DNA of 64,000 nt from Desulfobacteraceae bacterium (lineage in GTDB: Bacteria > Desulfobacterota > DSM-4660 > Desulfatiglandales > Desulfatiglandaceae). Position numbers and translations under genes: made by a program. The stretch spans positions 1 to 64,000 of the forward strand of contig JAUWMR010000010.1 of NCBI GenBank assembly GCA_030613055.1, given 5' to 3'. The first letter of the stretch is position 1. Every line of letters begins with the position of its first letter. The notes beneath the pieces were generated by a model, which saw nothing but the letters and a program-made list of their open reading frames with translations, made no database searches and had not been told where the DNA came from. This document shows positions 5,344-60,883 of the stretch, in pieces.

Positions 5344-5351
5344 GATTGATG

Positions 5352-6943: not shown

Positions 6944-6958
6944 ATATTTTTATCAGAT

Positions 6959-12131: not shown

Positions 12132-12154
12132 AATTTTTGCCTCCTATTCTAAAT

Positions 12155-27487: not shown

Positions 27488-28514
27488 TATAATATCAACG
27501 GGACCAAAAAAGAGAAATAAAGAAGCATCATCAAGGAAGGATAGCAGGGGCGGAAAACTGTGGATGAGCGACTCGCAGATAATGGATATAGGGGACTTGC
27601 AGGGCACACCGGATCCTCTTTCAATTGCCGGACATACCGGCAGGGCAAAGGAATATTACGACGCGTTACTCGAAAAGGCTATAGAGGTGCGCAACAGGGT
27701 CAAGAGAACCCAGGGGATATCCCCTTCACCGGTTATCTCCATACTCCATCGTGCCATAGAAGAAGACCTAATTGATGCAATATACGAATATTGCGCTTCA
27801 GTTATAAGTGATGATCAACCAGCCGAAAGTATTTCTATCACATTTGGCGCATTGAGGGTAGGTAAAGGTTTAGGGTACGACACAGAAAGACTTATAAAAC
27901 TGGGACTTGCGGCCTTCCTCGAGAATGTTGGAATGTACCAGATCCCAGACCAAATTTTGCAGCAAGAGCGGAAACTCAGCCGGGAAGAAATGGAAATGAT
28001 CAGAGACCATCCTGAAATGAGCGCGCAAATTGTTGGAAGGATGGGAAATGCATATAAGTGGCTGGCAGAGGTCGTCCGGCAGGTTCATGAAAGATATGAT
28101 GGATCGGGTTATCCTGAAGGACTGAAAGGGAAAGATATTTCAGAGCTTGCGTCAATAATCGGGATCATAGATATCTATGTAGCCATGACAAAGGACAGGC
28201 CGTATCGGAATAAATTTTTACAAACAGATGCCGTAAAATCCGTTATCGGCATTGAAAAAGACAAATTTTCGCCCCGGGTGATCAAGGAATTCCTGAATCA
28301 GATTTCCCTTTTTCCCGTCAATGCCTGTGTAAGGCTGAATAACAAATCGATTGGACGCGTGGTTTCCACCGATAAGCGCCAGCCCATGAGGCCCGCTATC
28401 GAGCTTCTTTATGACGGGCTGGGCCGGAGAATGGAGAAAGGAACAATAGTACATTTAAGCGATTCTCCTCTACTGCATATTGTGGGCACTGTTGATGAAA
28501 AGGAGCTGCATTAG
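27471..28514 (+). CDS. HD-GYP-like protein with degenerate metal site
   Basis: The 347-residue protein keeps the GYP part (HERYDGSGYP, near residue 208) and the TKDRPYR segment of HD-GYP cyclic-di-GMP phosphodiesterases. However, the canonical HD dyad reads EN (FLENVGMYQIPD, near residue 150), the usual HH before ERYDGSGYP reads VH, and the DVYDA aspartate region reads DIYVA. Several metal ligands therefore appear lost, and it may act as a sensor, not an enzyme. It overlaps the ExeA-type gene. The start could also be the internal ATG (MSDSQIMD). Confidence 0.78.
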   Translation: MVQFSDIISTGPKKRNKEASSRKDSRGGKLWMSDSQIMDIGDLQGTPDPLSIAGHTGRAKEYYDALLEKAIEVRNRVKRTQGISPSPVISILHRAIEEDLIDAIYEYCASVISDDQPAESISITFGALRVGKGLGYDTERLIKLGLAAFLENVGMYQIPDQILQQERKLSREEMEMIRDHPEMSAQIVGRMGNAYKWLAEVVRQVHERYDGSGYPEGLKGKDISELASIIGIIDIYVAMTKDRPYRNKFLQTDAVKSVIGIEKDKFSPRVIKEFLNQISLFPVNACVRLNNKSIGRVVSTDKRQPMRPAIELLYDGLGRRMEKGTIVHLSDSPLLHIVGTVDEKELH

Positions 28515-28562
28515 GCAGGATTTAGCGAATATATTTCACGCAGAGAAATTTATATTCAAATT

Positions 28563-28718
28563 TGATGAACTCGTAAAAAGTCATTTTAACGCATGGATAC
28601 CCGCATTCGCGGGTATGATGGCTATCGTATCTGCTTGATATTAAATGCTTTATTGTCATTCCCGCGTAGGCGGGAATCCAGATAAATAGGAAAATTCGAC
28701 TTTTTACGAAGCCGTCAA
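28563..28718. repeat. Interspersed repeat family B, divergent copy 4
   Basis: The ends tgatgaactcgtaaaaagtc and gactttttacgaagccgtca match family B, but the interior is different, with hairpins tacccgcattcgcgggta and ttcccgcgtaggcgggaa. It lies just before the wza-like gene. Confidence 0.8.
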
Positions 28719-28736
28719 ATTTAAAGGTCTAAGATT

Positions 28737-29912
28737 ATGCACAAAGTTAGGAAAAACAATCAAGCGTTCTCCTTGAAATCTCTTTTCTGTTTTTTGTATC
28801 TCATTCCCGCCGTTTTTATGATCCAGTCATGCTACTCTACTACCGCGGTGAAGGGAACACCAGTGAAAGATATTGCAGTTATTAAAGAGAAAGCAGCCAG
28901 CAAGAAAGCGCAAAGAGAGGCACAAAGAAAAGAAATCCTGAAAATGAGCAGGGTAAGGGAAAACGAAACCTTTGTAGTAATTGACGGTATTCCCGAATAT
29001 CGAATCGGGCCTCTGGATGTCCTGGAAGTCACTTCGCGTATTGGAGCCAAGTCCACGACAACTACCGTCAAGGTAGGAAACAGGGGAAAGATATCCTATT
29101 CATTTGTAGATGATCTGGAGGTGTCAGGGTTAAGCCCCAGCGAAGTGGATGCAATATTGACCAATAGCTTAAAAAGATACATAAAAAACCCCAGGATTGA
29201 TGTCCTGGTAAAGGAATTTAAGAGCAAGAGTGCGCTGATCTTAGGAGAGCTTACTGCCATTCGAGGAACTCTTTATGGCGCTAAAGGCGCGAGCGGGAAA
29301 ATATATCTCGAAGGAAAAACATCTTTGATGGACCTTATCGCATTAGCAGGCGGTTATACGGTCGATGCAGATATAAGAAACGTAAAGCTTATCAGGCGGG
29401 CGAAAACCTACCTTATAAACTTATATGATATTATTGAAAAGGCTGATGATAGATTTAATGTCATCATTGATAGTGGGGATGTTGTAGATATTCCTGAGCT
29501 GCCAGAATATGGGGAAAGGATTTATGTGATGGGGGAGGTTTACAGCCAGGGGGTCTATTCTCTCAAGGACGCCAAGGATCTTTTAGGCGCCATTGCTCTT
29601 GCAGGCAGCTTCACCCCTTTGGCCAAGGAGGAAAACACCCTGATTGTAAGGGCTCTCGAACCCGGGAAAAAACCGTTAGTCATGATGGCAGACCTTAAGG
29701 CTCTTTTCAGAAAGGCCGACCTGGCCCAGAATACGCCTCTTGAAGACGGAGATTTAGTCTATGTGCCACGGATGCTCATAGGGGATATTAACGACTGGAT
29801 CGCCAATACAATGCCATTATTGAGTTTGATCCTTTACCCGGCAGAATTTGAGTCAAAATATTTCCTTAAAAGGCATCTCCATTTTGACCGAAAGAAGTCA
29901 ACATCTGAATAA
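28737..29912 (+). CDS. Polysaccharide export outer-membrane lipoprotein (Wza family)
   Basis: The 391-residue protein has a lipoprotein signal with the lipobox IQSC at C32, a polysaccharide-export domain starting at YRIGPLDVLEVTSRIG (near residue 84), and two SLBB-like domains (GKIYLEGKTSLMDLIALAGG and IYVMGEVYSQGVYSLKDA). Wza-type proteins form the outer-membrane channel that exports polysaccharide, working with the Wzc-like kinase encoded next. Size agrees with the family (about 360-400). Confidence 0.9.
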   Translation: MHKVRKNNQAFSLKSLFCFLYLIPAVFMIQSCYSTTAVKGTPVKDIAVIKEKAASKKAQREAQRKEILKMSRVRENETFVVIDGIPEYRIGPLDVLEVTSRIGAKSTTTTVKVGNRGKISYSFVDDLEVSGLSPSEVDAILTNSLKRYIKNPRIDVLVKEFKSKSALILGELTAIRGTLYGAKGASGKIYLEGKTSLMDLIALAGGYTVDADIRNVKLIRRAKTYLINLYDIIEKADDRFNVIIDSGDVVDIPELPEYGERIYVMGEVYSQGVYSLKDAKDLLGAIALAGSFTPLAKEENTLIVRALEPGKKPLVMMADLKALFRKADLAQNTPLEDGDLVYVPRMLIGDINDWIANTMPLLSLILYPAEFESKYFLKRHLHFDRKKSTSE

Positions 29913-30089
29913 GTCAAAATAATGTTTCATGGATTCTCCCCAGTTTAAGCCATGGGCAGGCTTTTTGTTAGGATCACGAATAAACTAACATGCATGTCGT
30001 TACCATATAAAACATACCACAGTAAGTGGAGGGGCGGGAGCCTGGACACGTATATTTGTTAAGAACATGAGAGAAAATAAGGAATTATC

Positions 30090-33000
30090 GTGGCGCAATA
30101 CGACGTAGATCTCAGGGAATACTGGCGTATTCTCAAAAAGCGCAAGGTTACTGTCATTATTACAGTTATTGCATTAGGCGCTTTCAGCACTTTTTTTGCC
30201 ATTTTCAAAGCACCTACTCCCCTTTACACCTCTATTTGCAGCATAAAATTTGAAAAAGAACAAACCGTGGAAGGGCTCTATGCCAGGACGCTTTCGTGGT
30301 CTGGCAGTGACGACATTGAGTCTCTGATCTCTGTGCTTAAGAGTCATTCTATTATACAAAAGGTCGCTGAAAAGTTAGGGAAAATCCCTAAAGGCTCAAG
30401 CATGGGCGGTTCTGTGTTGAAACCGAAAATCGCAGCCATCGTTAATAGCCTGCAGCAAAAAATCAAAGTCACAAGGGAACAGTTCACCAACATTATAAAC
30501 ATTGAGGTTACCGATACAACACCCGCCTTCGCGCAAAGACTCGCCCATACCATTGCCATAACCTATAAGGAGCAACACGCTGAAGCACAGAATAGAAGAA
30601 CCGTAGAGGCCATGAAATATATTGCCGAACAGTTAAAAGAAACGCTGCACAAGCTCAGGGAATCCGAAGATGAATTCAACAGGTTTACACAGGAAAACCA
30701 GTTGGTTTCTATTGATCTGCAGAGTGAAAGCCTGTTGTTACACGCCAAAGAAGTTAGAGGTATAATACGACAGTTCGAAGAGGCAAACAGGGAGCTCAAT
30801 GAATTGCTCTTGAAACTGGCCCAATTCATAAATGATCCTTCAGGTTCCGGCGGTGATCTTTATTCAACATATGCAAATAAGCAGTACCAGGATATCCATA
30901 ATGTACTGGTAGGGTTTTTGCTCAAAAGGGACTCCTTGCTTGAAGATTATACAGCAAGACATCCTGAGGTCATAGATATAAGGCGTAGAATAATCGAAAA
31001 TGCGCGGAAGATGGAAATAATCGCCCGGTCTCAGATCAACGATATAGAGAAAAGGAAAAAGGATTCAGAAGAGGATCTGGCAAAGGTTAACAAAAAGACC
31101 GGTGAGTTAATGGAAAAAAAGCTTGAATTCAATCGACTAAAGAGAAAAGTCGATTCCTATAATGATATGACCGCGCTTTTGGAGCGGAAAAACCAGGAAG
31201 CATTAATCAGAAAGGCTGAAAAACCTGATGAAATCACAATCGTCAGGCCTGCCCTTTTGCCAACTTTTCCCATTAATCCCCCCAAAACTGTGGCCACAGG
31301 GGCAATGGGTGTGGTTGTTGGCCTTATACTCGGGATAGTCATCGCGTTCATCGTGGAGACCTTTGATACCTCTCTTGGCGCTATTGAAGACGTGGAAGAG
31401 ACGCTTGGGACCCAGGTCTTGGGCGTTATCCCGCAAGGGGACATGAAAGGTATTTTAGAGAGCCTGAAAGGCAGGGATCAGGAGGGAGGCCACGAAGATA
31501 CCTTTAGACAGGAAATGGCCCTTGTGTCTCATTTTGTGCCCCAGTCCATGTTAGCGGAGAGTTTCAGGGCGCTCAGGACAAATATCCAGTTTCATGATCT
31601 GGAAAAAAAGGTAAAAACAATTGCTATTACCAGCGCTTCTCCGCAGGAAGGCAAAACATCGGCTGCCGTCAACTTAGCCATAACAATGGCACAGTCCGGA
31701 ATGAAAACTCTTCTTGTAGAATCTGATTTGAGAAAACCAGCAGTGGCGAAAGTGTTTGGTATTGAATCCAGCCCGGGATTGACCGATGTCCTCCTCGGGA
31801 ATTATTCCTGGCGTGATGTAGTAAAGACAATTACCGATATTATAATTGGAAAAATGGATTTAAGTGAGGCGATGATTACACCCGGTCTTGACAACCTTAA
31901 TATAATAACAAGTGGCACAATCCCTCCCAATCCCTCTGAATTGATCGATTCAAACCGCGTCATAGATTTTATTGAAGAGATAAAAGAAGATTATGACATG
32001 GTTATTTTTGATACCCCTCCAATCCTTTCTACGGCCGATCCCATGATATTGGGTGCCAAGGTGGATGCCGTTGTCCTTGTGTATCGTATAGGAAGTGTAT
32101 CGAAAGGTCTTCTCAAAAGGGCCACGCTTCAGATGTCGCAGGCCAAAGGCAATCTTATGGGAGTTGTTTTAAACGGAATGAAGGCCGAGGTGAGTCCTGA
32201 TTTTCAGGACTTTAAATACTATAAATATTACTATTCATACGGGCAAGAGGGGAAAGAAAAGAAGAAGAGGAAGGTGAGAAAACAGAAGGGGACATTTTTG
32301 AAATTGCTGATAACCCTGATTGCCCTGGGTCTTTTGGTTCTTGGCCTGCTGTGGCAAAGGGGTCTTTTGCCGGTTGAAAAATACCTGTTCAAGAAGCCGG
32401 CCGTTTCCAGGGAGCGAAAAAAGATTGTATCCCAAAAGATCCCCACGCAATCTGCCGAGAAGCGCCTGGCGGAATCAGTTCCTGTAAAGGAGGCGCAAAT
32501 TATCACTCCTGGCACAGCCTCTACGAGTAAGCAGGATAATGGGGCTGTATTATTCAAGAAGCCGCGCCAGCGTGCAAAAATACCTGTGTCGATGTTCAGC
32601 CCAGAAAAAGAGGATATTTCTCCTCCTGAACAGAAAGCAGAAACAAGGAAACCTGCCAGTCCACCTGAGTTAACGCCGAAGGTTATTTCCCCTGCCAATC
32701 AGAAGGATATAGAGACCGATTTAGTTTTTGCCCATGCCGATGAAAGATATCCGTATTCCATTCAAATGGGGGCTTATAAAACGATCAAAGAAGTGAAAAA
32801 TGCTGTTGCATTTATTGAAAAGCACGGTCTTTTTCCCTACTGGAACCTGGTTGATCTGGGAGGGAAAGGAAAGTGGTACAGGGTTTTTGTTGGGGCTTTT
32901 TTTAGTGTGGACGGCGCGAAAAATTTCATTCAAAAATATGGATTTTCCACCACACGTGTTTTGAAAACTGCGTACGCCGTCCAGATAGAATCATATCCGG

Positions 33001-33758
33001 AGAACAGGGAATTGAGCCAACAGCTGTCCATGGTGGAGAAAACCGGTTACTCACCCTACATTGTTAAAGATTTCAGGGGAACGATGACTTCAGTTATAGA
33101 CGAGTCATCATTAGAGAAAAAAGTCGGACCGCTTGGAAAGACGGCTGTTATAAATGTTTCCGCCGGTAATATACGGACAAGGCCGACAAAGAACTCTTCC
33201 ATAATGGACAAACTCGCAAGAGGGGAAAAGGTTACACTAATAAAAAAGAAAGACGAATGGCATGTTGTCGGTCTTCAAGATGGCAGGGTGGGCTGGGCCC
33301 ATCAAAGGCTTTTTTTGGAAAAGGATTTTTCGCCCGACAAGATTTTTTTACAGCTTTTTGCAGCAGCCGAAGACACGGCTACTATCAGAGTGAACATTGG
33401 CCGTGTTCGTGAAAAACCTTCTGCCGGTTCAAAAATAATATCCCTCCTGAAAAAAGGAGACCCCGTGTCAGTTATCGCGGCGAAGGGGGACTGGTTTATC
33501 GTAGAGCTTGAGGACGGGAAATTGGGCTGGGCCCATAAGATCCTTTTTACGGACAAAAGCAACATAAGTAAATCCAAAAAGACCAATGCCTCTCCGGTCG
33601 GTGTGCCGTTACCCGTTCTTAAAGACGGCAGTATCGTTGAAGACTTCCAAAAAGGCAATCACATTCTAATTGGGGCCTTTGTGACACAAAAGGCCGCGAT
33701 AAATCTTGCTCGCAAGCTTAAAGAGACCGGCATTGATTGCAGAGTCGTCTTGAGATAA
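30090..33758 (+). CDS. Wzz/BY-kinase (Wzc-like) with C-terminal SPOR and SH3 domains
   Basis: This 1222-residue protein combines several domains. A Wzz chain-length domain lies between two membrane segments (about residues 19-38 and 399-420). A bacterial tyrosine kinase follows, with Walker A SASPQEGKTS near 515 and the Walker A' / B region VIFDTPPIL near 640. Next is a tyrosine cluster (YYKYYYSYG, near 712). Unlike Wzc, which ends there, a third membrane helix follows (about 736-757), then a SPOR-like domain (about 887-955), two SH3-like domains (about 1020-1075 and 1100-1152) and a final half SPOR. The extra part should lie in the periplasm and bind peptidoglycan. It controls polymer length and export with the Wza-like lipoprotein. 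Confidence 0.88.
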   Translation: MAQYDVDLREYWRILKKRKVTVIITVIALGAFSTFFAIFKAPTPLYTSICSIKFEKEQTVEGLYARTLSWSGSDDIESLISVLKSHSIIQKVAEKLGKIPKGSSMGGSVLKPKIAAIVNSLQQKIKVTREQFTNIINIEVTDTTPAFAQRLAHTIAITYKEQHAEAQNRRTVEAMKYIAEQLKETLHKLRESEDEFNRFTQENQLVSIDLQSESLLLHAKEVRGIIRQFEEANRELNELLLKLAQFINDPSGSGGDLYSTYANKQYQDIHNVLVGFLLKRDSLLEDYTARHPEVIDIRRRIIENARKMEIIARSQINDIEKRKKDSEEDLAKVNKKTGELMEKKLEFNRLKRKVDSYNDMTALLERKNQEALIRKAEKPDEITIVRPALLPTFPINPPKTVATGAMGVVVGLILGIVIAFIVETFDTSLGAIEDVEETLGTQVLGVIPQGDMKGILESLKGRDQEGGHEDTFRQEMALVSHFVPQSMLAESFRALRTNIQFHDLEKKVKTIAITSASPQEGKTSAAVNLAITMAQSGMKTLLVESDLRKPAVAKVFGIESSPGLTDVLLGNYSWRDVVKTITDIIIGKMDLSEAMITPGLDNLNIITSGTIPPNPSELIDSNRVIDFIEEIKEDYDMVIFDTPPILSTADPMILGAKVDAVVLVYRIGSVSKGLLKRATLQMSQAKGNLMGVVLNGMKAEVSPDFQDFKYYKYYYSYGQEGKEKKKRKVRKQKGTFLKLLITLIALGLLVLGLLWQRGLLPVEKYLFKKPAVSRERKKIVSQKIPTQSAEKRLAESVPVKEAQIITPGTASTSKQDNGAVLFKKPRQRAKIPVSMFSPEKEDISPPEQKAETRKPASPPELTPKVISPANQKDIETDLVFAHADERYPYSIQMGAYKTIKEVKNAVAFIEKHGLFPYWNLVDLGGKGKWYRVFVGAFFSVDGAKNFIQKYGFSTTRVLKTAYAVQIESYPENRELSQQLSMVEKTGYSPYIVKDFRGTMTSVIDESSLEKKVGPLGKTAVINVSAGNIRTRPTKNSSIMDKLARGEKVTLIKKKDEWHVVGLQDGRVGWAHQRLFLEKDFSPDKIFLQLFAAAEDTATIRVNIGRVREKPSAGSKIISLLKKGDPVSVIAAKGDWFIVELEDGKLGWAHKILFTDKSNISKSKKTNASPVGVPLPVLKDGSIVEDFQKGNHILIGAFVTQKAAINLARKLKETGIDCRVVLR

Positions 33759-50947: not shown

Positions 50948-51634
50948 ATGATGGTAGTGGCCGTGCATCAACCCCAGTATTTGCCATGGCTGGGTTACTT
51001 TGATAAGATTGACAGGGCGGATATCTTTGTCCTGCTGGATAATGTGCAGTTTAAGAAAAATGAATGGCAGAATAGAAATAAGATCAAGACGGCCCAGGGG
51101 TGGCAATGGCTTACAGTTCCTGTAAGGTATAAGCACCCGCAGTTGATATATGAAGTAGAGATCAATAATGCTGTAAGATGGCAGCATAAGCAGAGACAGT
51201 CTCTTCTGTCTAATTACAAAAAGGCGATCTACTATGACTACCTGCTTGATTTTCTTGAGGAGATTTTATCCCGCACATGGCAGGGGATCTCCCAGTTAAA
51301 TATTGATGTTGTTAAAAGGCTGGTCGATCTTTTAGGAATAGATACGCCCCTGTATGTCGCCTCACAGATCGGCGAGTTTTCCAGGGACCCGGATGAGAGG
51401 CTTGTTGCCATAATCCGGTATTTCGGAGCAGATACATATCTGGCAGGCAGTGGTGGGAGGCAGTATATGGATCTGGATAAATACAGGGAAAATGGCATAG
51501 AGGTCATATTCCAGAACTATGAACACCCTGTATATGATCAGCTTTATGGTAAATTTGAGCCATACATGTCGGTCATTGATCTGATCTTTAATCATGGCCA
51601 TCGTAGTCTAAATATCCTTCGGGGGAACGAATGA
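50948..51634 (+). CDS. WbqC family protein
   Basis: The 228-residue protein has the clear family start VAVHQPQYLPWLGYFDKIDR and DNVQFKKNEWQNRN. WbqC-like proteins occur in O-antigen and lipid modification loci and are thought to act with amidation or amino-acyl transfer to sugars, but the reaction is not established. It overlaps the PIG-L gene by four bases. Confidence 0.9.
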   Translation: MMVVAVHQPQYLPWLGYFDKIDRADIFVLLDNVQFKKNEWQNRNKIKTAQGWQWLTVPVRYKHPQLIYEVEINNAVRWQHKQRQSLLSNYKKAIYYDYLLDFLEEILSRTWQGISQLNIDVVKRLVDLLGIDTPLYVASQIGEFSRDPDERLVAIIRYFGADTYLAGSGGRQYMDLDKYRENGIEVIFQNYEHPVYDQLYGKFEPYMSVIDLIFNHGHRSLNILRGNE

Positions 51635-52251
51635 ATATACTCGCCATAGGGCCGCATCCCGATGACATTGAAATAGGTTGTGCAGGCACATTGATCAAAT
51701 ATGCACAACAGGGTCATAATGTTTTTCTCCTGCTTGTCACAAGGGGTGAAAAAGGTGGTAACGCTGAACTTAGATATAAAGAGCAACTGAAATCAGCAGA
51801 AATTATTGGTGCGAAAGAGATTTTTTGGGGTGGTTTTAAGGATACTGAATTGCTTGATAAGGGAAATGAGATTATTCATAAAGTTGAACAGCATATTGAC
51901 TCGATCAGACCTGACTTTATTTTTGTTAATTTTTATGACGATACGCATCAGGATCACCGCACCGTGAATCGTTCCGTTCTTTCCGCAGCGAGGCACATAA
52001 AAAATGTGATGTTTTATGAGGTTCCGACCAGCAATAATTTTACGCCAAATGTGTTTGTGGATATAGACGCCGTTTTTGATAAAAAATTAGATGCATTAAA
52101 GGCGCATGTTTCGCAAATAACCAAGACAAATATAGAGGGTCTTTCAATTATTGATATTGCCACGGCTTCCGCCCACTTCAGGGGTGTGCAGGGGAGGGTC
52201 GCCCTGGCCGAGGGATTTGTTTCTGAGAGGCTGTTCATTAATATTGATTGA
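51631..52251 (+). CDS. PIG-L/LmbE family deacetylase
   Basis: The 206-residue protein has the zinc site IGPHPDDIEIGCAGTL (residues about 6-21) and the distal DDTHQDHRTVNRSVLSAARH. Such enzymes remove acetyl groups from N-acetyl sugars. Translationally coupled to WbqC and followed by an aminotransferase, it probably makes or exposes an amino sugar in the polymer. Confidence 0.92.
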   Translation: MNILAIGPHPDDIEIGCAGTLIKYAQQGHNVFLLLVTRGEKGGNAELRYKEQLKSAEIIGAKEIFWGGFKDTELLDKGNEIIHKVEQHIDSIRPDFIFVNFYDDTHQDHRTVNRSVLSAARHIKNVMFYEVPTSNNFTPNVFVDIDAVFDKKLDALKAHVSQITKTNIEGLSIIDIATASAHFRGVQGRVALAEGFVSERLFINID

Positions 52252-52258
52252 ATGAAAG

Positions 52259-52289
52259 AGTGCCTAAAATTTAGCTCACTTTAGGCACT
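52259..52289 (+). terminator. Hairpin after the PIG-L gene (possible weak terminator)
   Basis: agtgcctaaa and tttaggcact form a 10-bp stem with an 11-base loop. There is only a short T-rich run afterwards, so termination may be partial. Confidence 0.4.
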
Positions 52290-52314
52290 TTAGTTCACTC
52301 AAATCAGGTAAGAA

Positions 52315-53355
52315 ATGATTACACACTCAAAGGTAGTTCTCGACGAAGATGATATTATTGGTGTAGAAGGAGTCTTGCGATCGGGCCTGTTAGCCCAGGG
52401 AAAGAACGTCTCATCCCTTGAGGATGAATTTGCCTCTTTCATAGGCGTAAATCATGCGGTTGCCGTCAGTTCGGGCACGGCTGCGCTTCATCTCTCACTC
52501 CTTGCCCTTGGGATTGCCAATGGTTCAGAAGTTATCGTGCCGAGCTTTGTATGTACAGCACTCTTAAATGCTGTTTATTATTTAAAAGCAACGCCCATTG
52601 TGGTGGACATTGATCCAGGCACCTACAATATCAGCGCCGATCAAGTAAAAAGGGCCGTCAGTGCGAAGACCGGGGCAATAATTGTGCCGCATATGTTCGG
52701 TCTGCCGGCAGATATGGATGGAATTCTTTCCCTCGGGGTTCCTGTAATAGAAGACTGCGCGCAGTCAGTCGGGGCAAAATACAATGAGAAATATACAGGA
52801 AGTCTTGGCATTATGTCCGTTTTTTCCCTTTATGCCACAAAGATGCTCTGTGCCGGGGAAGGAGGACTTGTACTATCCAACGATATCGAGGTGATTGAAC
52901 GCGTAAGAGATCTCAGAGACTATGATGAAAGAGAAAGTTATGCCGTCAGGCATAATTATAAGCTAACCGATATGCAGGCCGCTTTGGGCAGGAGCCAGCT
53001 TGCGAAACTACCCCAATTTATCCGGAAAAGGCAAAAGATTGCCGGAATTTACAATAACGGCCTGTCGGGAGGAGTCCCTCGCATTCCGATGTCTGCTGAA
53101 GGAAAAGAACATATTTATTATCGCTATGTAATACCTGTTGATGACCCAATTGCTTTAATAAAAGGCATGATGAAAAAAGGGATAGAGTGCAGGAGACCGG
53201 TATTCAAGCCCCTGCATAAGTATTTAAACCTGAGTGGGTATACAAGAACGGAGCAGGCGTGGTCAATGGCCGTATCCATCCCTATATATCCCTCCCTCAC
53301 ACAAAGTGATGCCCATGAAATCGTGGGTGCGATAAGAGCGGTTTTAAAAATTTAA
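52315..53355 (+). CDS. DegT/DnrJ/EryC1/StrS aminotransferase
   Basis: The 346-residue PLP enzyme has VSSGTAALHLSLLALGIANG, VVDIDPGTYNIS and the lysine region SLYATKMLCAGEGGLVLS, where the K forms the Schiff base. It transfers an amino group to a keto-sugar nucleotide. With the PIG-L protein this indicates an amino sugar in the polymer. A strong-ish AGGTAAGAA precedes the ATG. Confidence 0.93.
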   Translation: MITHSKVVLDEDDIIGVEGVLRSGLLAQGKNVSSLEDEFASFIGVNHAVAVSSGTAALHLSLLALGIANGSEVIVPSFVCTALLNAVYYLKATPIVVDIDPGTYNISADQVKRAVSAKTGAIIVPHMFGLPADMDGILSLGVPVIEDCAQSVGAKYNEKYTGSLGIMSVFSLYATKMLCAGEGGLVLSNDIEVIERVRDLRDYDERESYAVRHNYKLTDMQAALGRSQLAKLPQFIRKRQKIAGIYNNGLSGGVPRIPMSAEGKEHIYYRYVIPVDDPIALIKGMMKKGIECRRPVFKPLHKYLNLSGYTRTEQAWSMAVSIPIYPSLTQSDAHEIVGAIRAVLKI

Positions 53356-53365
53356 GACAATATTT

Positions 53366-53549
53366 GTGACTACTAACGTAGTCAGGCTGAAGGTGTTTAG
53401 ACTGAAGGTAGAAGGTATCAGGACTGAGGTGAAAGGACTGAGGACTGAAAAAAAAGCTTAGCCCCCGCCTGTCGGAGTGAAGCGTAGATCCCGCTATCGG
53501 GGCAGGACGGCGGGCAGCCTTCAGCCTAAATAACCTGTGTAGTTACATG
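53366..53549. repeat. Interspersed repeat family A, copy 3
   Basis: The full copy runs from gtgactactaacgtagtcag to the inverted end cagcctaaataacctgtgta. The inner core equals copies at 4388 and 18442. It lies between the aminotransferase and the initiating transferase. Confidence 0.82.
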
Positions 53550-53586
53550 TTTTTTATAAAAGCTATATAAACCGGAGCCATAAGAG

Positions 53587-54741
53587 ATGTTGGGCCATAA
53601 GAACATATTCGGTCTTAGAATCTTCAACCTGCCTGCGATTATCCTTTTTCTCTTTCTCAACATTCCTTTCATACGTTCCTATTTTCTGTATTATGGCCTG
53701 AGATGGATCTATATCTTCCTTTTTTCCTTTTGCCTTTCCTTTATTTTAACGCCCGTAATAAGGCGTATTGCCATCAGGCTTGGCATTCTTGATATTCCAG
53801 ATAAAAGAAAAATACACGGGAGCAGCACTCCTCTGTTAGGAGGCCTGGTTATTATGATCTCCCTTTCTGCCTCGTTGACTGCCAATATGGTTCTTGAGAG
53901 GGAGATGGTCGTCCTGTTATTAGGGGGATTAGTGCTGGGCTTTGTTGGGCTTCTTGATGACTGGAAAGGCCTTTCGGCAAGGCTGAAGCTTTTCATCCAG
54001 GTTGCTGTTGTACTGATTCTCATCTACAATGGAATCATATTGGACCTGCTTCCACCCAGGACCACATGGGGATATATATGCAATCTTATCCTGACCGTTA
54101 TCTGGATTGTAGGAATAACCAATGCTATGAATTTTTTTGACGGGATGGATGGACTGGCTACCGGGTTGAGCGCTGTCATCGCTGTATTTATTGGAATCGC
54201 CTCATTTCAGACCTCCCAGCATGTTATGGGGTGGATTGCCATTGCCGTCCTGGGAAGTTGTCTTGGATTCTTCCCTTTCAATTTCAAACTGAGATCTCCG
54301 GCAGCAATCTTTCTGGGGGACGCAGGGAGCACGTTCCTCGGTTTTGTTTTAGCCGCATTGGCAATACAGGGGTACTGGTCTGATAACAGTCGCATAGTGT
54401 CCTTTGCCATGCCCACACTGATATTCTGGATACTTATATTTGATATGGTCTATATAACCATGGAAAGAGTAATTACCGGCAAGGTAAAGACCGTAGGGGA
54501 ATGGATTCGCTATGTTGGCACAGATCATTTGCATCACCGGCTTGCCCATGTTCTTGGAGGACAGAAGAGGAGCGTGCTTTTTATCTACTTTCTCAGTTCA
54601 TGCCTGGGTATAAGTGCCATTGTACTCAGGTACGCAAGGACTATTGACGCAATTTTGTTGATTATTCAGGCATTAATTATTGTGGTTCTCCTTACCATTC
54701 TTGAAAGACGTGGGCATGGGCTGTCTGAAATCGAAAAATAA
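53587..54741 (+). CDS. Undecaprenyl-phosphate GlcNAc-1-phosphate transferase (WecA/TagO-like)
   Basis: The 384-residue membrane protein has about ten helices and the MraY/WecA signature: KRKIHGSSTPLLGGLVIMIS, GLLDDWKGL, NAMNFFDGMDGLATGLSA and FLGDAGSTFLGFV, the aspartates binding magnesium. It transfers a sugar-1-phosphate to the lipid carrier and so starts the repeat unit. GGAG eight bases before the ATG fixes the start. It is the last gene of the polysaccharide locus. Confidence 0.93.
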   Translation: MLGHKNIFGLRIFNLPAIILFLFLNIPFIRSYFLYYGLRWIYIFLFSFCLSFILTPVIRRIAIRLGILDIPDKRKIHGSSTPLLGGLVIMISLSASLTANMVLEREMVVLLLGGLVLGFVGLLDDWKGLSARLKLFIQVAVVLILIYNGIILDLLPPRTTWGYICNLILTVIWIVGITNAMNFFDGMDGLATGLSAVIAVFIGIASFQTSQHVMGWIAIAVLGSCLGFFPFNFKLRSPAAIFLGDAGSTFLGFVLAALAIQGYWSDNSRIVSFAMPTLIFWILIFDMVYITMERVITGKVKTVGEWIRYVGTDHLHHRLAHVLGGQKRSVLFIYFLSSCLGISAIVLRYARTIDAILLIIQALIIVVLLTILERRGHGLSEIEK

Positions 54742-54812: not shown

Positions 54813-55925
54813 ATGGCTATGGAAATCATGAAAACGCCAATGTCCGTGGATTTGTCGATAACGAATGAATGTAACCTGCGGTGTAAATACTGCAGTCATT
54901 TTACGAGTGCGGGCGATGTGGGCCAGGATCTATCCAGGGATGAATGGCTCAAGTTCTTTGAAGAATTGAACCGTTGCGCGGTCATGTGGGTGACGCTTCA
55001 GGGAGGTGAAGCCTTTTGCCGGGAGGATCTTAAAGAACTTATAGAAGGAATTGTTCGCAACCGGATGCGGTTTGATATCCTGAGTAACGGTACCTTGATC
55101 ACGGACGAGACAGCGGCTTTTCTCGCTTCAACCGGGCGCTGTGACGGAGTGCAAGTCTCTATTGACGGTTCAATACCCATGACCCACGATGCCTTTAGGG
55201 GAAAAGGGAATTTCCTCAAGGCGGTTCAGGGTATCGAACGTCTCCAAAGATACGATGTCCCTGTGTCAGTGAGGGTAACCATTCACAGAAAAAATGTCAG
55301 GGAGCTTGATGAAATTGCAAAATTCCTGCTTGAAGATATCGGCCTTTCAAATTTTTCTACCAATGCGGCTTCTTACATGGGACTTTGCCGGCAGAACGCC
55401 GACATGGTCCAGCTCACTACCGAAGAACGATCCATTGCCATGGAATCCCTCCTGGGGCTTGATAAAAAATACAACGGACGCATTAGCGCTGATGCCGGTC
55501 CGCTGGCTGAAGCGAGAACCTTCCTCGAGATGGAAGACGCGCGCCGACAAGGCATAAAGCGTATACCTGGCAGAGGCTATCTAACGGCCTGCAGTGGACC
55601 GATGAAGACAATTGCCGTTCGTGCCGACGGCATCATGGTCCCCTGTATTCAACTGAGCCACATAGACTTGGGGCGGATTAATCAGGACGATCTTAAAGAT
55701 ATCTGGCAGAATCATTTGGAACTGAAGAGGCTACGGGATCGGCACAGTATACCGTTGAGCGATTTTGAATTTTGTCGGGGCTGCGATTATATCAACTATT
55801 GTACAGGGAACTGTCCTGCCCTGGCGTATTTGATTACAGGTGATGAAAATCATCCAAGCCCCGATGCATGTTTCAAGCGATTTCTCGAAGATGGGGGGAG
55901 ACTTCCGGATGAGGACTTATTGTAA
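54813..55925 (+). CDS. Radical SAM/SPASM peptide maturase, RiPP locus (first)
   Basis: The 370-residue protein has the radical SAM motif C20-x3-C24-x2-C27 (CNLRCKYC) and LQGGEAFCREDL. It also has a full SPASM cysteine set near the C-terminus: ACSGPMKTIAVRADGIMVPC, then CRGCDYINYCTGNC and a last C in DACFKRF. SPASM enzymes form thioether or C-C bonds in peptides or activate sulfatases. The next gene is joined by a one-base overlap. The neighbouring precursor is the obvious substrate candidate, which is inference. Confidence 0.88.
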   Translation: MAMEIMKTPMSVDLSITNECNLRCKYCSHFTSAGDVGQDLSRDEWLKFFEELNRCAVMWVTLQGGEAFCREDLKELIEGIVRNRMRFDILSNGTLITDETAAFLASTGRCDGVQVSIDGSIPMTHDAFRGKGNFLKAVQGIERLQRYDVPVSVRVTIHRKNVRELDEIAKFLLEDIGLSNFSTNAASYMGLCRQNADMVQLTTEERSIAMESLLGLDKKYNGRISADAGPLAEARTFLEMEDARRQGIKRIPGRGYLTACSGPMKTIAVRADGIMVPCIQLSHIDLGRINQDDLKDIWQNHLELKRLRDRHSIPLSDFEFCRGCDYINYCTGNCPALAYLITGDENHPSPDACFKRFLEDGGRLPDEDLL

Positions 55926-57100
55926 TGGTACGCTGGCGTGATATAAATCAGTTTATCCGGTGTATATCAAGGGCTCACCTTACGCATATTGAAAGAGATT
56001 ATGTCTTTCGTTTTATCAAAAAGGATGTTCCCTGGGATAACCTTGTTGCTTTGGCAAATATGCAAGACGTCGACGGATTTATTTATTATCATTTGAGAGA
56101 TTTAGGCCTCCTTAATTTTCTCCCCAAATCCGCCTTAAGGAACCTGAAGAATAGTTACTCCCGGACCCAGAAACGCACGTTTTCCATCCTAAGTGAAGCG
56201 AAAGCCCTTTCTCTCCAGTTTGAGCAGGCCCGGATTCCGGTTGTTGCCCTCCAGGGCTTACCGCTTATAAACACGGTTTACGCTGAGCCGGGTCTCAGGC
56301 AACTGGGGGATATCGATTTGATGGTCAAACCGGGCAACAAACAGAGGTTCGAGGAATTGCTATATCAAGTGGGATACACGGCGCCGTATCCCTTTTATCC
56401 GGACCTGCTTTATAAAAATGACATTTTAATTGACATCCATACCCACGTCCTCAACCTGGAGAGAGTCCGGAGCAGGCGATACCTGTTTCCCGAGGACCTC
56501 ACCCCAATGTGGGAAAAGGCCACACCCATGTTTAATAGACATAACGGTCTTTTGATATTAGACCCATATGATAATTTCGTGGCCCTGGCCGCCCACGCGC
56601 TGAAGCACAGCTATTCTCGTCTGATATGGCTTGCAGATCTCCACGAGTGCTTACTGAAATGTGCCAACAATACCAAAGGATGGAAGGAGATGGTAGAGCG
56701 CGCACGATTCTGGCGCCAGGAAAGAGTGGTCCTTTATTCTCTTGTTCTGGTGGAAAAGATTTTTTGTCTGGATGTACCCTCCTGGGTAAAGCATCAGCTG
56801 GGGATAAACAGGCTGGGCATGTTGGAAAGACATCTCATTCGCCTGAAACTTAGAGGCTTTTCCTCATCCATTCTATGTCACGTCTTATGGCTTATAAATA
56901 TCAAGAGGGCAGGGGACAAGCTGAAGTTCATTAAAGAAACCGTCTTTCCCGCAGGAGATATCATGGCCCAGATATTCGGGCAGAGACCTCAGCATATTAA
57001 AGGGGCGGTTTACGCCAAACGGCTGGGAAAAGCTGTTATCATAATGTGTGAGGATTTATATAAGGCCTTGCGTTTTTCTTTCAGGCCAAACGGAAATTAA
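55925..57100 (+). CDS. Nucleotidyltransferase family protein (PF14907-like), RiPP locus
   Basis: The 391-residue protein has the family pattern: an N-terminal helical part, PVVALQGLPLINTVYAEPG, then the nucleotidyltransferase motif LRQLGDIDLMVKP (near residue 125). Related genes occur in lasso and other RiPP loci beside HPr-kinase-like genes; in pseudomycoidin such a protein acts on the phosphorylated tail. It is directly coupled to the first radical SAM gene. Its precise reaction here is unknown. Confidence 0.82.
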   Translation: MVRWRDINQFIRCISRAHLTHIERDYVFRFIKKDVPWDNLVALANMQDVDGFIYYHLRDLGLLNFLPKSALRNLKNSYSRTQKRTFSILSEAKALSLQFEQARIPVVALQGLPLINTVYAEPGLRQLGDIDLMVKPGNKQRFEELLYQVGYTAPYPFYPDLLYKNDILIDIHTHVLNLERVRSRRYLFPEDLTPMWEKATPMFNRHNGLLILDPYDNFVALAAHALKHSYSRLIWLADLHECLLKCANNTKGWKEMVERARFWRQERVVLYSLVLVEKIFCLDVPSWVKHQLGINRLGMLERHLIRLKLRGFSSSILCHVLWLINIKRAGDKLKFIKETVFPAGDIMAQIFGQRPQHIKGAVYAKRLGKAVIIMCEDLYKALRFSFRPNGN

Positions 57101-57104
57101 TTAC

Positions 57105-57632
57105 TTATACCATACACTCTCCGATTGAAAATTTATTTAAAACAAGCTTTGCTTTTTCCAGGTATTTTGAAACCAGTGTCATATCAAGTTCTTTTCTTAG
57201 TTTGTCACAGAAATATTGAATGCATAAATAGCTTCTACAATCAACGGGTAGGACGCAGCCGTCTTTCCAAAAAGGGCATAAATTCTTTTCCACATTGTCA
57301 TAATAAGGCTCGGGCAAGACAGTATCACACCTTATCAACAGGTAATCGACAATACTAAACCCGCCCACAGTTCCCGCTACATAGATTGATAGTTCTGGAG
57401 AAGATAAATGACAACAGTTTATATTACACGTTGGACAATTTCTCTTAATAGAAGGCAGGATTATTTTTTGAATATTCGATAAGATTTGTTTGTATTTTCC
57501 GGAAAGGCTCTTCAGGTATTTTATTCCATTGTCACTCAGAGTCCGATAGAACTTCTCATATAATTCAAATTCTTTGATAGCTTTTGTAAAATCCGACGTT
57601 ATCCTATTCTTTTGGTTATCTGTCTCAATCAT
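57105..57632 (-). CDS. Cysteine-cluster protein (distant YkgJ relative), RiPP locus
   Basis: The 175-residue protein has C66, C69, C73, C74 (CPTCNINCC) and then CPFWKDGCVLPVDCRSYLCI. The spacing C-x2-C-x3-CC and CP-x5-C-x5-C matches the YkgJ-type protein at 9227. I therefore think it binds iron or zinc. It lies 110 bases behind the precursor peptide on the same strand and faces the nucleotidyltransferase gene tail to tail, four bases apart. It may modify or protect the peptide; no ribosome site stands out. Confidence 0.7.
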   Translation of the reverse strand: MIETDNQKNRITSDFTKAIKEFELYEKFYRTLSDNGIKYLKSLSGKYKQILSNIQKIILPSIKRNCPTCNINCCHLSSPELSIYVAGTVGGFSIVDYLLIRCDTVLPEPYYDNVEKNLCPFWKDGCVLPVDCRSYLCIQYFCDKLRKELDMTLVSKYLEKAKLVLNKFSIGECMV

Positions 57633-57742
57633 TTTCGAGTATCAATAGTTGAAAGTGATACATACGGCAGGGTTCATCAAATAGTATGTATTCCAGGCAA
57701 TCGATTACCGATCAAGAATGTATTATAGATAGCGGATGCTTA

Positions 57743-58120
57743 TTAGCTTGGGGAACCACCCGCATTACAGCTGTTACCCGCCGTACCACCGGCATGGCAG
57801 TTGTTACTTGCCATTCCACCTGTTTGACAATTTCCCCCTTGCGCCATTTGCCCGCTTTGGCATTTATCTCCCGCCGAAGCCCCTGTGTTGCACTGACCAC
57901 CTATTGCCATTTGCCCGCTTTGGCATTTACTGCCCGCCGAAATTCCCGTTCTGCATTGGTTTCCCGTTGCTGATATGCCAGTTTTGCATTGGGAACCGCT
58001 GGGGCTCCCACCCGGCTTGCATGGGGCGGCAGCATAGGCAACCCCTCCTCCAAGGTCAAACAACCGGGGGGGGTCATAGGGAATTCGGGTCGCACTATCA
58101 TTGTCCTTTGATCCTGACAT
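57743..58120 (-). CDS. Cys-repeat RiPP precursor peptide
   Basis: The 125-residue peptide (ATG 58120, GGAGG six bases before it) has a 30-residue leader and a repetitive core. The leader holds Y15, P18, L20 and G24 in PYDPPRLFDLGGG, exactly the YxxPxLxxxG motif bound by PqqD/RRE domains. The core has nine cysteines at 34, 45, 56, 66, 77, 87, 98, 108 and 118. They begin repeats of 10-11 residues of the form C-x-[TSA]-G-x-x-A-x-G, such as CQSGQMAIGGQ and CNTGASAGDK. The C-terminus is GGSPS. A 63-base tandem duplication is visible in the DNA. It directly follows the HPr-kinase-like gene. No other protein of this kind is known to me. Confidence 0.85.
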   Translation of the reverse strand: MSGSKDNDSATRIPYDPPRLFDLGGGVAYAAAPCKPGGSPSGSQCKTGISATGNQCRTGISAGSKCQSGQMAIGGQCNTGASAGDKCQSGQMAQGGNCQTGGMASNNCHAGGTAGNSCNAGGSPS

Positions 58121-58134
58121 TTCATCCTCCAATA

Positions 58135-59046
58135 TTATTTTCCAGTGATAACATCATAAACATTTTCGTCACGCCGAAAATGAAGATTATATAAAGGCAG
58201 ATTATCGCATACTTCGAGGAAAAGGTCAAAAATGTCCAATTTGGCCCGAGACGATAAATATGAAAAATAATGGATATACCGTTTTATGATCATGGAAACA
58301 GCCTTTTTCCTTGATATGCTTTCCAGATAGGCCCGGTTGTCCTTCATAAGGAAATAAAGACCTTTTAAACGGGCATTCATGGTACGGAACTCTTTATCTG
58401 GTTTTTTTAGACCACTAAACTGATGGAAAGGGGATGAAAACAACTTATATTGATCATCCCGTTTACAAAATATAGGGCTGTCGTCTGAAAGAACTGTGCA
58501 TTCGGTGCAGACTTCAGCCAGGGTGCTTTTCCCCGCACCAGAGTCCCCTAAAAAGAGGTGTCCTTCTCCGTTCCTTGCCAGGGCCGCGGCATGGACAAAA
58601 CAGGCCGCTTTTTCCCCCAGGATCTGGGCAAAATACATCCAGAAGAGGCGGAATATGGGTTTTAAACATCCGGGACCCTCCTTCAATAGATAGATACGTG
58701 CTAAAGCAGTATCCGGGTTAAAAAGGAGCAGCCCATCCAAACAGAATGAGGAAATGGTCTTTTCGCCTATGGGAAAATCGTCCCTGTATTTAGGGAGTTG
58801 CCGTAACCATTCAGCCACATCCCTTGTGGGAAGTCTCTGTTCAAAAACAGGTTTCCGGTCCGTTGACCTGATTGGGAATCTCAAATTTGGTTTTCCTAAG
58901 GTGCTCACCTTAACTTCAGTTTTTGTTTTCCGGTCGGTGTTAAGAAAACCCCGAAAAAACCGCTCACATAAAGGGACCGCCCTTTCTGCCTCTCCCAAAA
59001 AGACAATGCCGATGTCTGTTCCCGCCAGAGTCACTGTTAATTCCAT
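58135..59046 (-). CDS. HPr-kinase/phosphorylase-like P-loop protein, RiPP locus
   Basis: The 303-residue protein has a P-loop LFLGDSGAGKSTLAEV (near residue 165) followed by TVLSDDSPIF, the acidic region of HprK-like kinases. It lacks the N-terminal half of true HPr kinase, and no PTS gene is near. Such short kinases are part of lasso and other RiPP loci, where one (paeninodin) phosphorylates the C-terminal serine. The precursor here also ends in serine. ATG 59046 with AGGTG upstream is preferred to a GTG three codons earlier. Confidence 0.82.
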   Translation of the reverse strand: MELTVTLAGTDIGIVFLGEAERAVPLCERFFRGFLNTDRKTKTEVKVSTLGKPNLRFPIRSTDRKPVFEQRLPTRDVAEWLRQLPKYRDDFPIGEKTISSFCLDGLLLFNPDTALARIYLLKEGPGCLKPIFRLFWMYFAQILGEKAACFVHAAALARNGEGHLFLGDSGAGKSTLAEVCTECTVLSDDSPIFCKRDDQYKLFSSPFHQFSGLKKPDKEFRTMNARLKGLYFLMKDNRAYLESISRKKAVSMIIKRYIHYFSYLSSRAKLDIFDLFLEVCDNLPLYNLHFRRDENVYDVITGK

Positions 59047-59062
59047 CAATATCACCTAACCA

Positions 59063-60133
59063 CTACACATATCTCGAGGATGGAAACCGGCCGGACTCAA
59101 AGAATTCCTGACACAAAAAATAGGCCGCATAGAGATCACTGGAAAGTGCATATGCATTGGCCCTACAACTGCCCAGACATTGGAATTTGAAGATACATCG
59201 GCCGCATATGCCATTGAGCTTCCAGGGCAGGGATTGGCGCAGGTCCCTTAGGGTGGGACTGTTCTTCCAGACATCACATATGGAAACCCGACGGATATTA
59301 CCCATCCGAAGATCGTCAATGGTTTGCCCTATACCACAAATAGAAAAATCTCCATTTCCCAGGATCCCCAAGATATTGAGTATGTGGCACTCCGAAATTC
59401 CTCTTCCCTTTATATCCGAAATAGTCCTGAAGGCTATCGGAAGATCAAAAACAATCTTCAGGTTTTTATTCGAAGACCGTCTTTCTTCCACCATGCGGTA
59501 CAATCGAAGCAGGTCATTTAACTCCAGATTATGTTTATGTTCAAATGCCTCCTTCCCTCTCCCACATGGGATCAACGGGTTTATCTTTAGGGAACCGGCC
59601 CCCAGCTTTTCACTTAACCGGATAACGCCCGGTATCTCTTCCCGGTTTCTGCGCTGGAGTGTCAAAATGATCTGAAAATCGAAGGCGTATTCAGACAGGA
59701 GCCTCAGCCCTTCCAATGTTCGATGGAAACTTCCCTTTACCCCTCTGATTTCATCGTGAAGATCCTTCGTAGCGGCATCCAGGCTGACGGATATCTGGTC
59801 AATATCGCAGGATTGAAGGCGTTCGACCATATCCCTGGTAATCAGTGTTCCGTTGGTTTCGATAAGAACGGACACCTGTTCCTCGGCCAGAAACGCGATT
59901 AGTTCACCAAAATGCCGGTATAATAAGGGTTCACCGCCTGTGAGTTTTACATTTTGTAATCCTAACGGTTTGGCCTCGGAAATGGCCTTCTTAAGGTATT
60001 CAAGAGGAATGCCATTTTGCCGTTGCTGAGAATATTTTGGCGAGATCCAACAGTGACTGCAGCAAAGGTTGCAATGGTCGGTAAGGTAGAGGTAAAGGCT
60101 GGTCAGTGGGAATTCCGGTTCTTTGTTTTCCAT
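59063..60133 (-). CDS. Radical SAM/SPASM peptide maturase, RiPP locus (second)
   Basis: The protein of about 356 residues has the radical SAM motif CNLCCSHC (C-x3-C-x2-C), VKLTGGEPLLYRHF and a SPASM tail with CGRCIFKFQCLGSC and a final cysteine (YFLCQEF). It is distinct from the first radical SAM enzyme. It lies between the PqqD-type and kinase-like genes, so it is probably the main enzyme acting on the precursor. ATG 60133 (MENKEPEF) is preferred; the longer frame begins at TTG. Confidence 0.9.
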   Translation of the reverse strand: MENKEPEFPLTSLYLYLTDHCNLCCSHCWISPKYSQQRQNGIPLEYLKKAISEAKPLGLQNVKLTGGEPLLYRHFGELIAFLAEEQVSVLIETNGTLITRDMVERLQSCDIDQISVSLDAATKDLHDEIRGVKGSFHRTLEGLRLLSEYAFDFQIILTLQRRNREEIPGVIRLSEKLGAGSLKINPLIPCGRGKEAFEHKHNLELNDLLRLYRMVEERRSSNKNLKIVFDLPIAFRTISDIKGRGISECHILNILGILGNGDFSICGIGQTIDDLRMGNIRRVSICDVWKNSPTLRDLRQSLPWKLNGICGRCIFKFQCLGSCRANAYALSSDLYAAYFLCQEFFESGRFPSSRYV

Positions 60134-60165
60134 TATATTAATAAAGGAATAAAACAAAGGCTGAT

Positions 60166-60453
60166 TTATTGTCCCCTATTCAGCGGAGATATAAATCCAT
60201 TTTCTTCCAGTTCCTTGATAAAGATTTTCACATCCTTTTCGATCTCCCGGCGTCCCGTATCAGGGAATAGACCAAGCAGACGGTCGATCACCTGATCAAC
60301 CTCGGTTTGATCGTTTAGCATCAAGTACGTCTCTTTGCCGGATCGGTTCATGTATTTCAGGTTTCCGGTATCGGGATCGAACAAGAATGCCCCGTCTTCT
60401 TCTTCTCTGTAAACAATTTTTTCATCCCGCTGAAATCGCTGCGTTTTATCCAT
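60166..60453 (-). CDS. PqqD-type RiPP recognition protein
   Basis: The 95-residue protein follows the PqqD pattern: VYREEEDGAFLFDPDTGNL, then YMNRSGKETYLMLND and EKDVKIFIKELEENGFI. PqqD-like domains bind the leader of the precursor and present it to the radical SAM enzyme. The start ATG 60453 lies four bases after the stop of the Tat-PqqD gene, showing coupling. Confidence 0.85.
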   Translation of the reverse strand: MDKTQRFQRDEKIVYREEEDGAFLFDPDTGNLKYMNRSGKETYLMLNDQTEVDQVIDRLLGLFPDTGRREIEKDVKIFIKELEENGFISPLNRGQ

Positions 60454-60457
60454 GGGC

Positions 60458-60883
60458 CTACTGAATTGCTCCAATTTTTTTTAATTGCCAGAGGAAACCA
60501 AGGGTATCCAACCTTGCCCGACGCTTGGAGACAAGGTATCGATCATGGATCATTTGGGAGATCTCCTTTGGCCTGTTCTTGCCGTCACATGCTTCCCAGA
60601 TCGTTTTCCCCATCGGGTTCATGGTGCATACAGGGTCCTTTTTTCCTCTTTTTTCCCTGTAAAGGGTGCTTGTATCTTCAAGGGTGTTACAGAGCACGCC
60701 TGGAACCCTTTCAGGCCTTGATGACGGCAGTATTTCAAAATCCATTTGCCGCAAAAAATCATGTATTCCAGGTTTAGCGGCTTGCAGTCGTTTGGGGCTC
60801 GCAAGCAGAATACCGGGTAATAATCCTATAAATGTGCCGATAAATCTTCTTCTCGACCCAGCCCTATTTATCATTGTATCCAT
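60458..60883 (-). CDS. PqqD-like domain with twin-arginine signal peptide
   Basis: The 141-residue protein has a Tat-type signal at the N-terminus: S10-R-R-R-F-I-G, then a hydrophobic stretch FIGLLPGILLAS and a probable cleavage site near LQA-AKP (about residue 34). The C-terminal half matches PqqD: CTMNPMGKTIWEACDGK, KEISQMIHDRYLV and TLGFLWQLKKIGAIQ. AAAGGAG before ATG 60883 fixes the start. A recognition domain that is exported, or anchored by an uncleaved signal, is unusual. It is the first gene of the minus-strand RiPP operon. Confidence 0.78.
   Translation of the reverse strand: MDTMINRAGSRRRFIGTFIGLLPGILLASPKRLQAAKPGIHDFLRQMDFEILPSSRPERVPGVLCNTLEDTSTLYREKRGKKDPVCTMNPMGKTIWEACDGKNRPKEISQMIHDRYLVSKRRARLDTLGFLWQLKKIGAIQ

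Follow-up and report, generated by a model that had tools for sequence, protein, structure and literature searches.

A divergent relative of the SynChlorMet cassette with a nine-fold Cys-Gly repeat precursor in a Desulfobacteraceae bacterium

Layout of the locus and its relation to SynChlorMet

We analyzed a 64,000-nucleotide stretch of DNA from a Desulfobacteraceae bacterium (contig JAUWMR010000010.1; hereafter the window), in which positions 54813-60883 hold a candidate biosynthetic locus for a ribosomally synthesized and post-translationally modified peptide (RiPP). Eight tightly packed genes form two convergent operons about 5 nt apart. All frames were confirmed at their coordinates, as was the picture drawn in the initial annotation of two facing operons around a single repetitive Cys-rich peptide. 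The forward-strand operon encodes a ScmE-type radical S-adenosylmethionine (SAM) enzyme and then a PF14907 nucleotidyltransferase. The reverse-strand operon, read downward from position 60883, encodes a PqqD protein with a twin-arginine translocation (Tat) signal, another PqqD protein, a ScmF-like radical SAM enzyme, an HprK-like kinase, the precursor peptide, and a small protein termed P175. The genes are as follows:

54813-55925, + strand: ScmE-type radical SAM/SPASM peptide maturase, 370 amino acids (aa); TIGR04250, 635 bits; CxxxCxxC plus 7 SPASM Cys
55925-57100, + strand: nucleotidyltransferase-like protein; PF14907, 147 bits; 1-nt overlap with the ScmE stop codon
57105-57632, - strand: P175, small 8-Cys protein; CPxCx3CC...C...GCxLP...C...FC, a metal-site-like pattern
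57743-58120, - strand: precursor peptide, 125 aa; leader with YDPPRL and GGGVAYA, nine CxxGxx[A/P] repeats; weak ScmA match
58135-59055, - strand: HprK/ScmC-like kinase; TIGR04249, 24 bits; H155...G170xxG173xG175K176S177...D191D192
59063-60157, - strand: ScmF-like radical SAM/SPASM enzyme; TIGR04251, 349 bits; 3 + 7 conserved Cys
60166-60474, - strand: PqqD-type RiPP recognition protein; PF05402, 39 bits (cut-off 23.4)
60458-60883, - strand: PqqD-domain protein with N-terminal twin-arginine signal SRRRFIGTFIGLLPGILLA; PF05402, 35 bits; ribosome-binding site upstream

The locus shares with the SynChlorMet cassette (TIGR04248-TIGR04252) a ScmE that scores above the model's cut-off, a ScmF-like radical SAM enzyme, PqqD, a ScmC-like kinase, and a ScmA-like repeat precursor. 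The ScmE enzyme passes comfortably (635 bits for TIGR04250 against a cut-off of 400), and the ScmF-like enzyme falls short of its own cut-off of 400 (349 bits for TIGR04251), which is nevertheless its best family by far. The kinase reaches 24 bits for the ScmC model TIGR04249, where the cut-off is 125 and standard loci score 205-292; the two PqqD proteins reach 25 and 13.5 bits for the ScmD model TIGR04248 (cut-off 100); and the precursor reaches 9.8 bits for the ScmA model TIGR04252 (cut-off 35). The precursor of a standard locus, L012, also misses that last cut-off (23.6 bits), so the ScmA model appears to be narrow. Since ScmE passes and the other four parts fail, the locus is, as judged by its sequence matches, a divergent variant or relative of the named SynChlorMet cassette and not a strict member. 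The window differs from SynChlorMet in having the extra Tat-signal PqqD protein and P175, in lacking an S26 peptidase or ATP-binding cassette (ABC) exporter nearby, and in having nine repeats where many standard precursors have three or so. The suggestion that the system was apparently undescribed therefore holds in part: NCBIfam already names ScmA, ScmC, ScmD, ScmE, and ScmF models and one window protein passes its model, while a literature search that covered few subscription journals retrieved no publication about the cassette.

Both radical SAM enzymes contain PF04055 and PF13186 and so qualify as SPASM maturases, as expected for a sactipeptide. Their 3 + 7 Cys positions are 97-100% conserved in 36 ScmE and 100% conserved in 29 ScmF proteins, and the window ScmE is 64-77% identical (best segment) to its relatives, including those from Omnitrophota and Planctomycetota bins.

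Within the 4.26 Mb genome, the locus holds the only full-length PF14907 protein and two of the four PqqD domains. Eight other regions with 11 further radical SAM genes, searched with the same profiles, contain no such kinase and no nucleotidyltransferase, and only one of them has a PqqD domain, which together argue against a chance neighborhood. The same genome has a second radical SAM RiPP-like locus (L091, G000:C73, positions 3643-8000) with two radical SAM genes, PqqD, and a precursor-like peptide of 62 aa with a WHKPEL leader (MKKTEKKQWHKPELIVLTRNKPEEQVLTACKGCTSPP...), without a kinase or transferase and without an NCBIfam equivalog.

The least characterized member of the set is P175, for which no Pfam, NCBIfam, PHROG, or PDB match was found and whose AlphaFold model (predicted local distance difference test, pLDDT, 45) was too poor for a fold search. 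Orthologs that are 55% identical occur in L010 and L046, so that P175 is present in only 3 of the loci, and because distant relatives sit in loci without radical SAM genes, we do not treat it as RiPP-specific. Those relatives (L154-L157) form an apparently undescribed family of about 185 aa with 8 Cys in the pattern CPYCGTVCC...CxF...GCILP...C..YFCD; the one in L155 is flanked by genes for a ManC-like protein and a CDP-alcohol phosphatidyltransferase, with RNA methyltransferase and PrmA genes nearby.

Recurrence of the gene set and its precursor family

To place the locus, we read the neighborhoods of 38 loci with ScmE and/or ScmF, using profiles built iteratively on the genes of the window; the ScmE profile overlaps with that of ScmF, and proteins were assigned to one or the other by single-sequence scores. 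In a sample, as opposed to the whole, of the GTDB genomes, ScmE relatives were present in 21 of 395 genomes of the same phylum and 10 of 85 of the same class, as well as in 3 of 199 Planctomycetota genomes (the phylum of L014) and 3 of 237 Omnitrophota genomes (the phylum of L012). This spread is patchy, as for accessory pathways.

Nineteen loci have both radical SAM genes and adequate flanks. PqqD was found in all 19, a precursor in 17, the kinase in 16, an S26 peptidase and an ABC-type match in 12 each, and the nucleotidyltransferase in 11. L010 and L046 each carry the full set of eight window genes; L055, L082, and L147 carry seven of them. The gene set thus recurs far beyond chance in the 38 related loci, and the random variation of neighbors that would have spoken against the initial annotation was not seen. 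Its assignment of the locus to RiPP biosynthesis gains from the same comparison: related loci from several phyla hold two complete SPASM enzymes along with PqqD proteins and precursors of one conserved family, and the kinase and the PF14907 transferase recur with them.

A wider group of HprK-like kinase and PqqD loci (L149-L153 and L158-L161) mostly includes radical SAM genes and often PF14907 and S26 genes; these radical SAM proteins lie below or far from the ScmE and ScmF cut-offs. CxxG-repeat precursors are also present in L150 and L151. Far from the window lineage, an Actinomycetota bin (L018) has a related architecture, with an HprK-like kinase (407 aa), two radical SAM genes, PqqD, and a PF14907-type gene in a row.

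The start of the window precursor was corrected to position 58120, with GGAGG upstream. All nine of its core Cys residues are followed by Gly at +3, an arrangement that none of 20,000 shuffles reached (maximum of seven), and its CxxGxx[A/P] units are 10-11 residues apart. Related precursors were found in 26 of the 38 cassette loci, and their cores contain 2-14 Cys, mostly 9-11 residues apart, in the pattern C-x-x-G-x-x-[A/P]. Among 184 Cys outside the window, 84% have Gly at +3; in the variant group of loci described below, the figure is 100%. The +6 position is Ala in 42% of units overall and in 60-77% of those in the variant, with Pro in 13-30% of units. The leaders of the relatives share a [YW]-x-x-P-x-L motif, represented in the window by YDPPRL; YxxPxL is the motif of lasso leaders (PMC10368454). 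Directly before the core, [A/G]-x-G occurs in 16 of 24 standard leaders, compared with an expectation of 7.5 from shuffling; in the variant, the leader has AYA, or once VYA. Both endings fit a small-x-small cleavage site at which the leader may be removed.

The kinase in the window keeps H155, G170, G173, G175, K176, S177, D191, and D192, which are invariant in six variant kinases and match the H-G-G-G-K-S-D-D residues listed for the lasso precursor kinase BsfK (PMC10368454). In lasso systems, PsmK phosphorylates the C-terminal Ser and PsmN adds a hexose to it (PMC9266682), and BsfK acts on a ring Ser (PMC10368454). Kinase-S26 fusions in L053, L060, L061, and L062 and S26-nucleotidyltransferase fusions in L012 and L046 indicate that the kinase, S26 peptidase, and transferase belong to one pathway. 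Sequence searches retrieved no solved relative of the nucleotidyltransferase, and the AlphaFold model of the kinase (pLDDT 41) was too poor for a fold search. In the literature on radical SAM enzymes together with HPr kinase, only a survey of anaerobe RiPPs was retrieved, which names the kinase in lasso clusters.

The window resembles the lasso peptide systems (paeninodin, pseudomycoidin, and the bsf cluster) in its YxxPxL leader, PqqD-type protein (PF05402 matches twice), HprK-like kinase residues, and nucleotidyltransferase gene, and differs from them in its radical SAM/SPASM maturases, its Cys-rich repeat core, and the absence of a conserved C-terminal Ser. A lasso peptide was rejected, as Pfam and NCBIfam matched neither an asparagine-synthetase-like cyclase nor a transglutaminase-like B2 peptidase among the eight genes. 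Changing the YxxPxL residues of BsfA to alanine did not stop phosphorylation, and only a triple change weakened leader removal (PMC10368454), so a mode of binding cannot be concluded from this motif by itself.

Variant cassettes and the Tat-signal PqqD protein

Seven loci (the window, L010, L046, L052, L055, L082, and the later-found L147) form a variant that shares a kinase clade, a Tat-signal PqqD protein, and an AYA (once VYA) leader. The kinases of the first six form one clade with support of 100/100, far from standard ScmC. In contrast, the ScmE proteins of the six variant loci are not a clade (four changes needed), and the ScmF proteins of L052 and L082 are of the standard kind. The kinase, Tat-signal PqqD protein, and precursor thus seem to form a module that moves between different cassette backbones. 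Away from its genome's radical SAM locus (L059), L148 contains the kinase and a Tat-signal PqqD protein, and L146 contains the kinase alone.

Neither an S26 peptidase nor an ABC exporter was found across all 64 kb of the window with profiles of the relatives' proteins. The initial annotation had likewise seen no transporter or leader peptidase, and this absence turns out to distinguish the variant from the standard cassette: of 24 standard loci, 20 encode the signal-peptidase-like S26 protein, compared with 1 of 7 variant loci (Fisher p 0.0017), and when a full ABC exporter is counted as an alternative to S26, the figures are 21 of 24 and 1 of 7 (p 0.0007). These p values are only a guide, given the non-independence of the loci and the shortness of some contigs. 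Among the four standard-type loci that lack S26, L057 and L059 come from genomes that hold a variant kinase elsewhere. The variant locus with S26 and an exporter, L046, is a weak counter-example, since a second precursor and kinase of standard type adjoin them.

With the start of the Tat-signal PqqD gene corrected to position 60883 (preceded by AAGGAG), the N-terminus of the protein is cleanly Tat-like (MDTMINRAGSRRRFIGTFIGLLPGILLA). A twin-arginine motif precedes an uncharged hydrophobic stretch (SRRRFIGTFIGLLPGILLA), and the genome encodes a Tat system (TatC, 266 bits) and a single, apparently housekeeping, S26 peptidase. An RRxF-like motif with a hydrophobic stretch was found in 6 of 43 PqqD proteins compared to 7 of 386 long open reading frames, and the six Tat-signal PqqD proteins belong to exactly the six loci with AYA leaders. 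Judging from these sequences, the Tat-signal PqqD protein may replace the usual leader removal and export. One specific version, which we put forward tentatively and rather doubt, is a hitchhiking route: the protein would bind the YxxPxL leader of the cross-linked, folded precursor and carry it through the Tat translocon, and a general signal peptidase would cut after AYA outside the cell, in place of the cassette's S26 peptidase and ABC exporter. A literature search for PqqD, twin-arginine, and radical SAM found no paper joining the three.

Beyond the cassette, the adjoining region of the window (50948-54741) contains WbqC-like, PIG-L, DegT, and WecA-type genes. The same four precede ScmE in L009, and relatives of WbqC, PIG-L, and WecA flank the Omnitrophota cassette L012, making a peptide-polysaccharide link possible. 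An exopolysaccharide locus at 26690-33758 has relatives of an XrtA-type ATPase and export proteins, along with a Wzc-like kinase of 1222 aa that has a long additional portion at its C-terminus. At 10944-13630, dsrB and dsrA (495 and 565 bits) identify the host as a bacterium with dissimilatory sulfite/sulfate metabolism; a divergent gene for a CobB/CfbB-type a,c-diamide synthase comes after them.

Proposed pathway and alternatives

We consider it likely that this is a RiPP biosynthesis locus, a divergent SynChlorMet variant, whose peptide would undergo cross-linking, phosphorylation, and nucleotidyl or sugar transfer. On the sequence evidence, the locus probably turns the nine-fold repeated Cys-Gly protein into a multiply cross-linked, phosphorylated peptide. 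A PqqD protein would bind and present the leader, and ScmE and ScmF would act repeatedly along the repeats. As a leading guess, by analogy with streptosactin, the CxxG units would acquire Cys-to-Gly thioethers, with the sulfur of each Cys bonded to the alpha carbon of the Gly at +3 in an unnested arrangement; up to nine links would lower the mass by about 18 Da. In streptosactin, a SPASM enzyme joins Cys to Ser or Gly at i+3, unnested (PMC8172795), and the CxxG spacing matches this i+3 exactly, providing a precedent for a Cys-Gly link. Similar to streptosactin, the window has a SPASM enzyme and Cys with Gly at i+3, which would give separate rings along the chain; it differs from that unnested sactipeptide, with its one radical SAM enzyme and two links, in having two radical SAM enzymes, nine units, a kinase, and a transferase. 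The TvgA/TvgB system also pairs a repetitive precursor with a modification installed many times by a radical SAM/SPASM enzyme; there, TVGG repeats yield cyclopropylglycine, and neither Cys nor a kinase is involved.

The kinase would then phosphorylate core Ser/Thr, and the nucleotidyltransferase would place a nucleotidyl or sugar group on that phosphate, for which PsmK and PsmN, acting on a leader-guided lasso peptide, offer a precedent (PMC9266682). We expect core Ser/Thr and not the C-terminal Ser because most relatives do not end in Ser as the window peptide does. Phosphorylation of a C-terminal Ser as a general rule was rejected, as tails are not conserved among relatives. Accordingly, of the heavily cross-linked and tail-modified peptide that the initial annotation envisaged, the cross-linking is plausible from the sequence and the tail modification finds no support in the relatives. 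The leader would be removed after AYA, and the Tat-signal PqqD protein would take the place held in standard cassettes by an S26 peptidase, often together with an ABC exporter.

Several points count against this pathway. Of the five cassette parts modeled in NCBIfam, four score under the cut-off; no conserved Ser/Thr marks a phosphorylation site in the precursors; and the nucleotidyltransferase is missing from 8 of the 19 well-flanked loci. The CxxG units could also serve thiol or metal chemistry, or the Gly could only make a turn.

The same enzymes might perform other chemistry, either ranthipeptide-type (beta or gamma) thioethers or cross-linking by one enzyme and epimerization of the +6 Ala by the other. 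Two different SPASM enzymes on one repeat do suggest two activities, and Ala is enriched at +6 in the variant (60-77%, against 42% overall). Nevertheless, Pro in 13-30% of units makes +6 a poor universal acceptor when Gly at +3 reaches 84-100%, and we find this chemistry somewhat unlikely. Another reading is a metal-binding or surface-structural peptide, in which free Cys thiols would bind metal or the peptide would coat the cell surface, and the locus would belong to the adjacent polysaccharide cluster, with no antibiotic-like product. This would account for the position of the locus after that cluster, the recurrence of WbqC, PIG-L, DegT, and WecA in L009 and most of them in L012, and the metal-site-like Cys pattern of P175. 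Only a minority of loci have polysaccharide neighbors, however, P175 occurs in only 3 loci, and two SPASM enzymes make unmodified Cys hard to credit, so we judge this unlikely.

The HprK-like protein could be a regulator like HPr kinase/phosphorylase instead of a peptide-tailoring enzyme, and in PDB profile comparisons it matches HPr kinases and other P-loop proteins equally weakly. Yet it is bound to the cassette and fused to S26 in four loci, and in lasso clusters the substrate of kinases that share these residues is the precursor (PMC10368454), which renders a regulatory role improbable. Lastly, the absence of S26 and ABC exporter genes from the window, in a genome whose single S26 looks housekeeping, might mean that the cassette has lost these parts, is decaying, and makes nothing. 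This is very improbable, as all eight frames are intact, the catalytic residues are conserved, and 7 loci from several families show this pattern together with the Tat-signal PqqD protein and AYA leader that they share, which decay would not produce.

With the divergent SynChlorMet variant as the preferred reading, a named radical SAM cassette gains a clear candidate substrate: precursors of one family that combine a leader of the lasso type with CxxG repeats that can be counted. The actions of both SPASM enzymes, the kinase, and the nucleotidyltransferase could then be followed on a single peptide, whose mass ladder would have up to nine steps. The kit of kinase and nucleotidyltransferase that decorates lasso peptides is thereby linked to radical SAM RiPPs. 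If Tat hitchhiking is true, it would represent a new RiPP export route and a new job for PqqD-type proteins.

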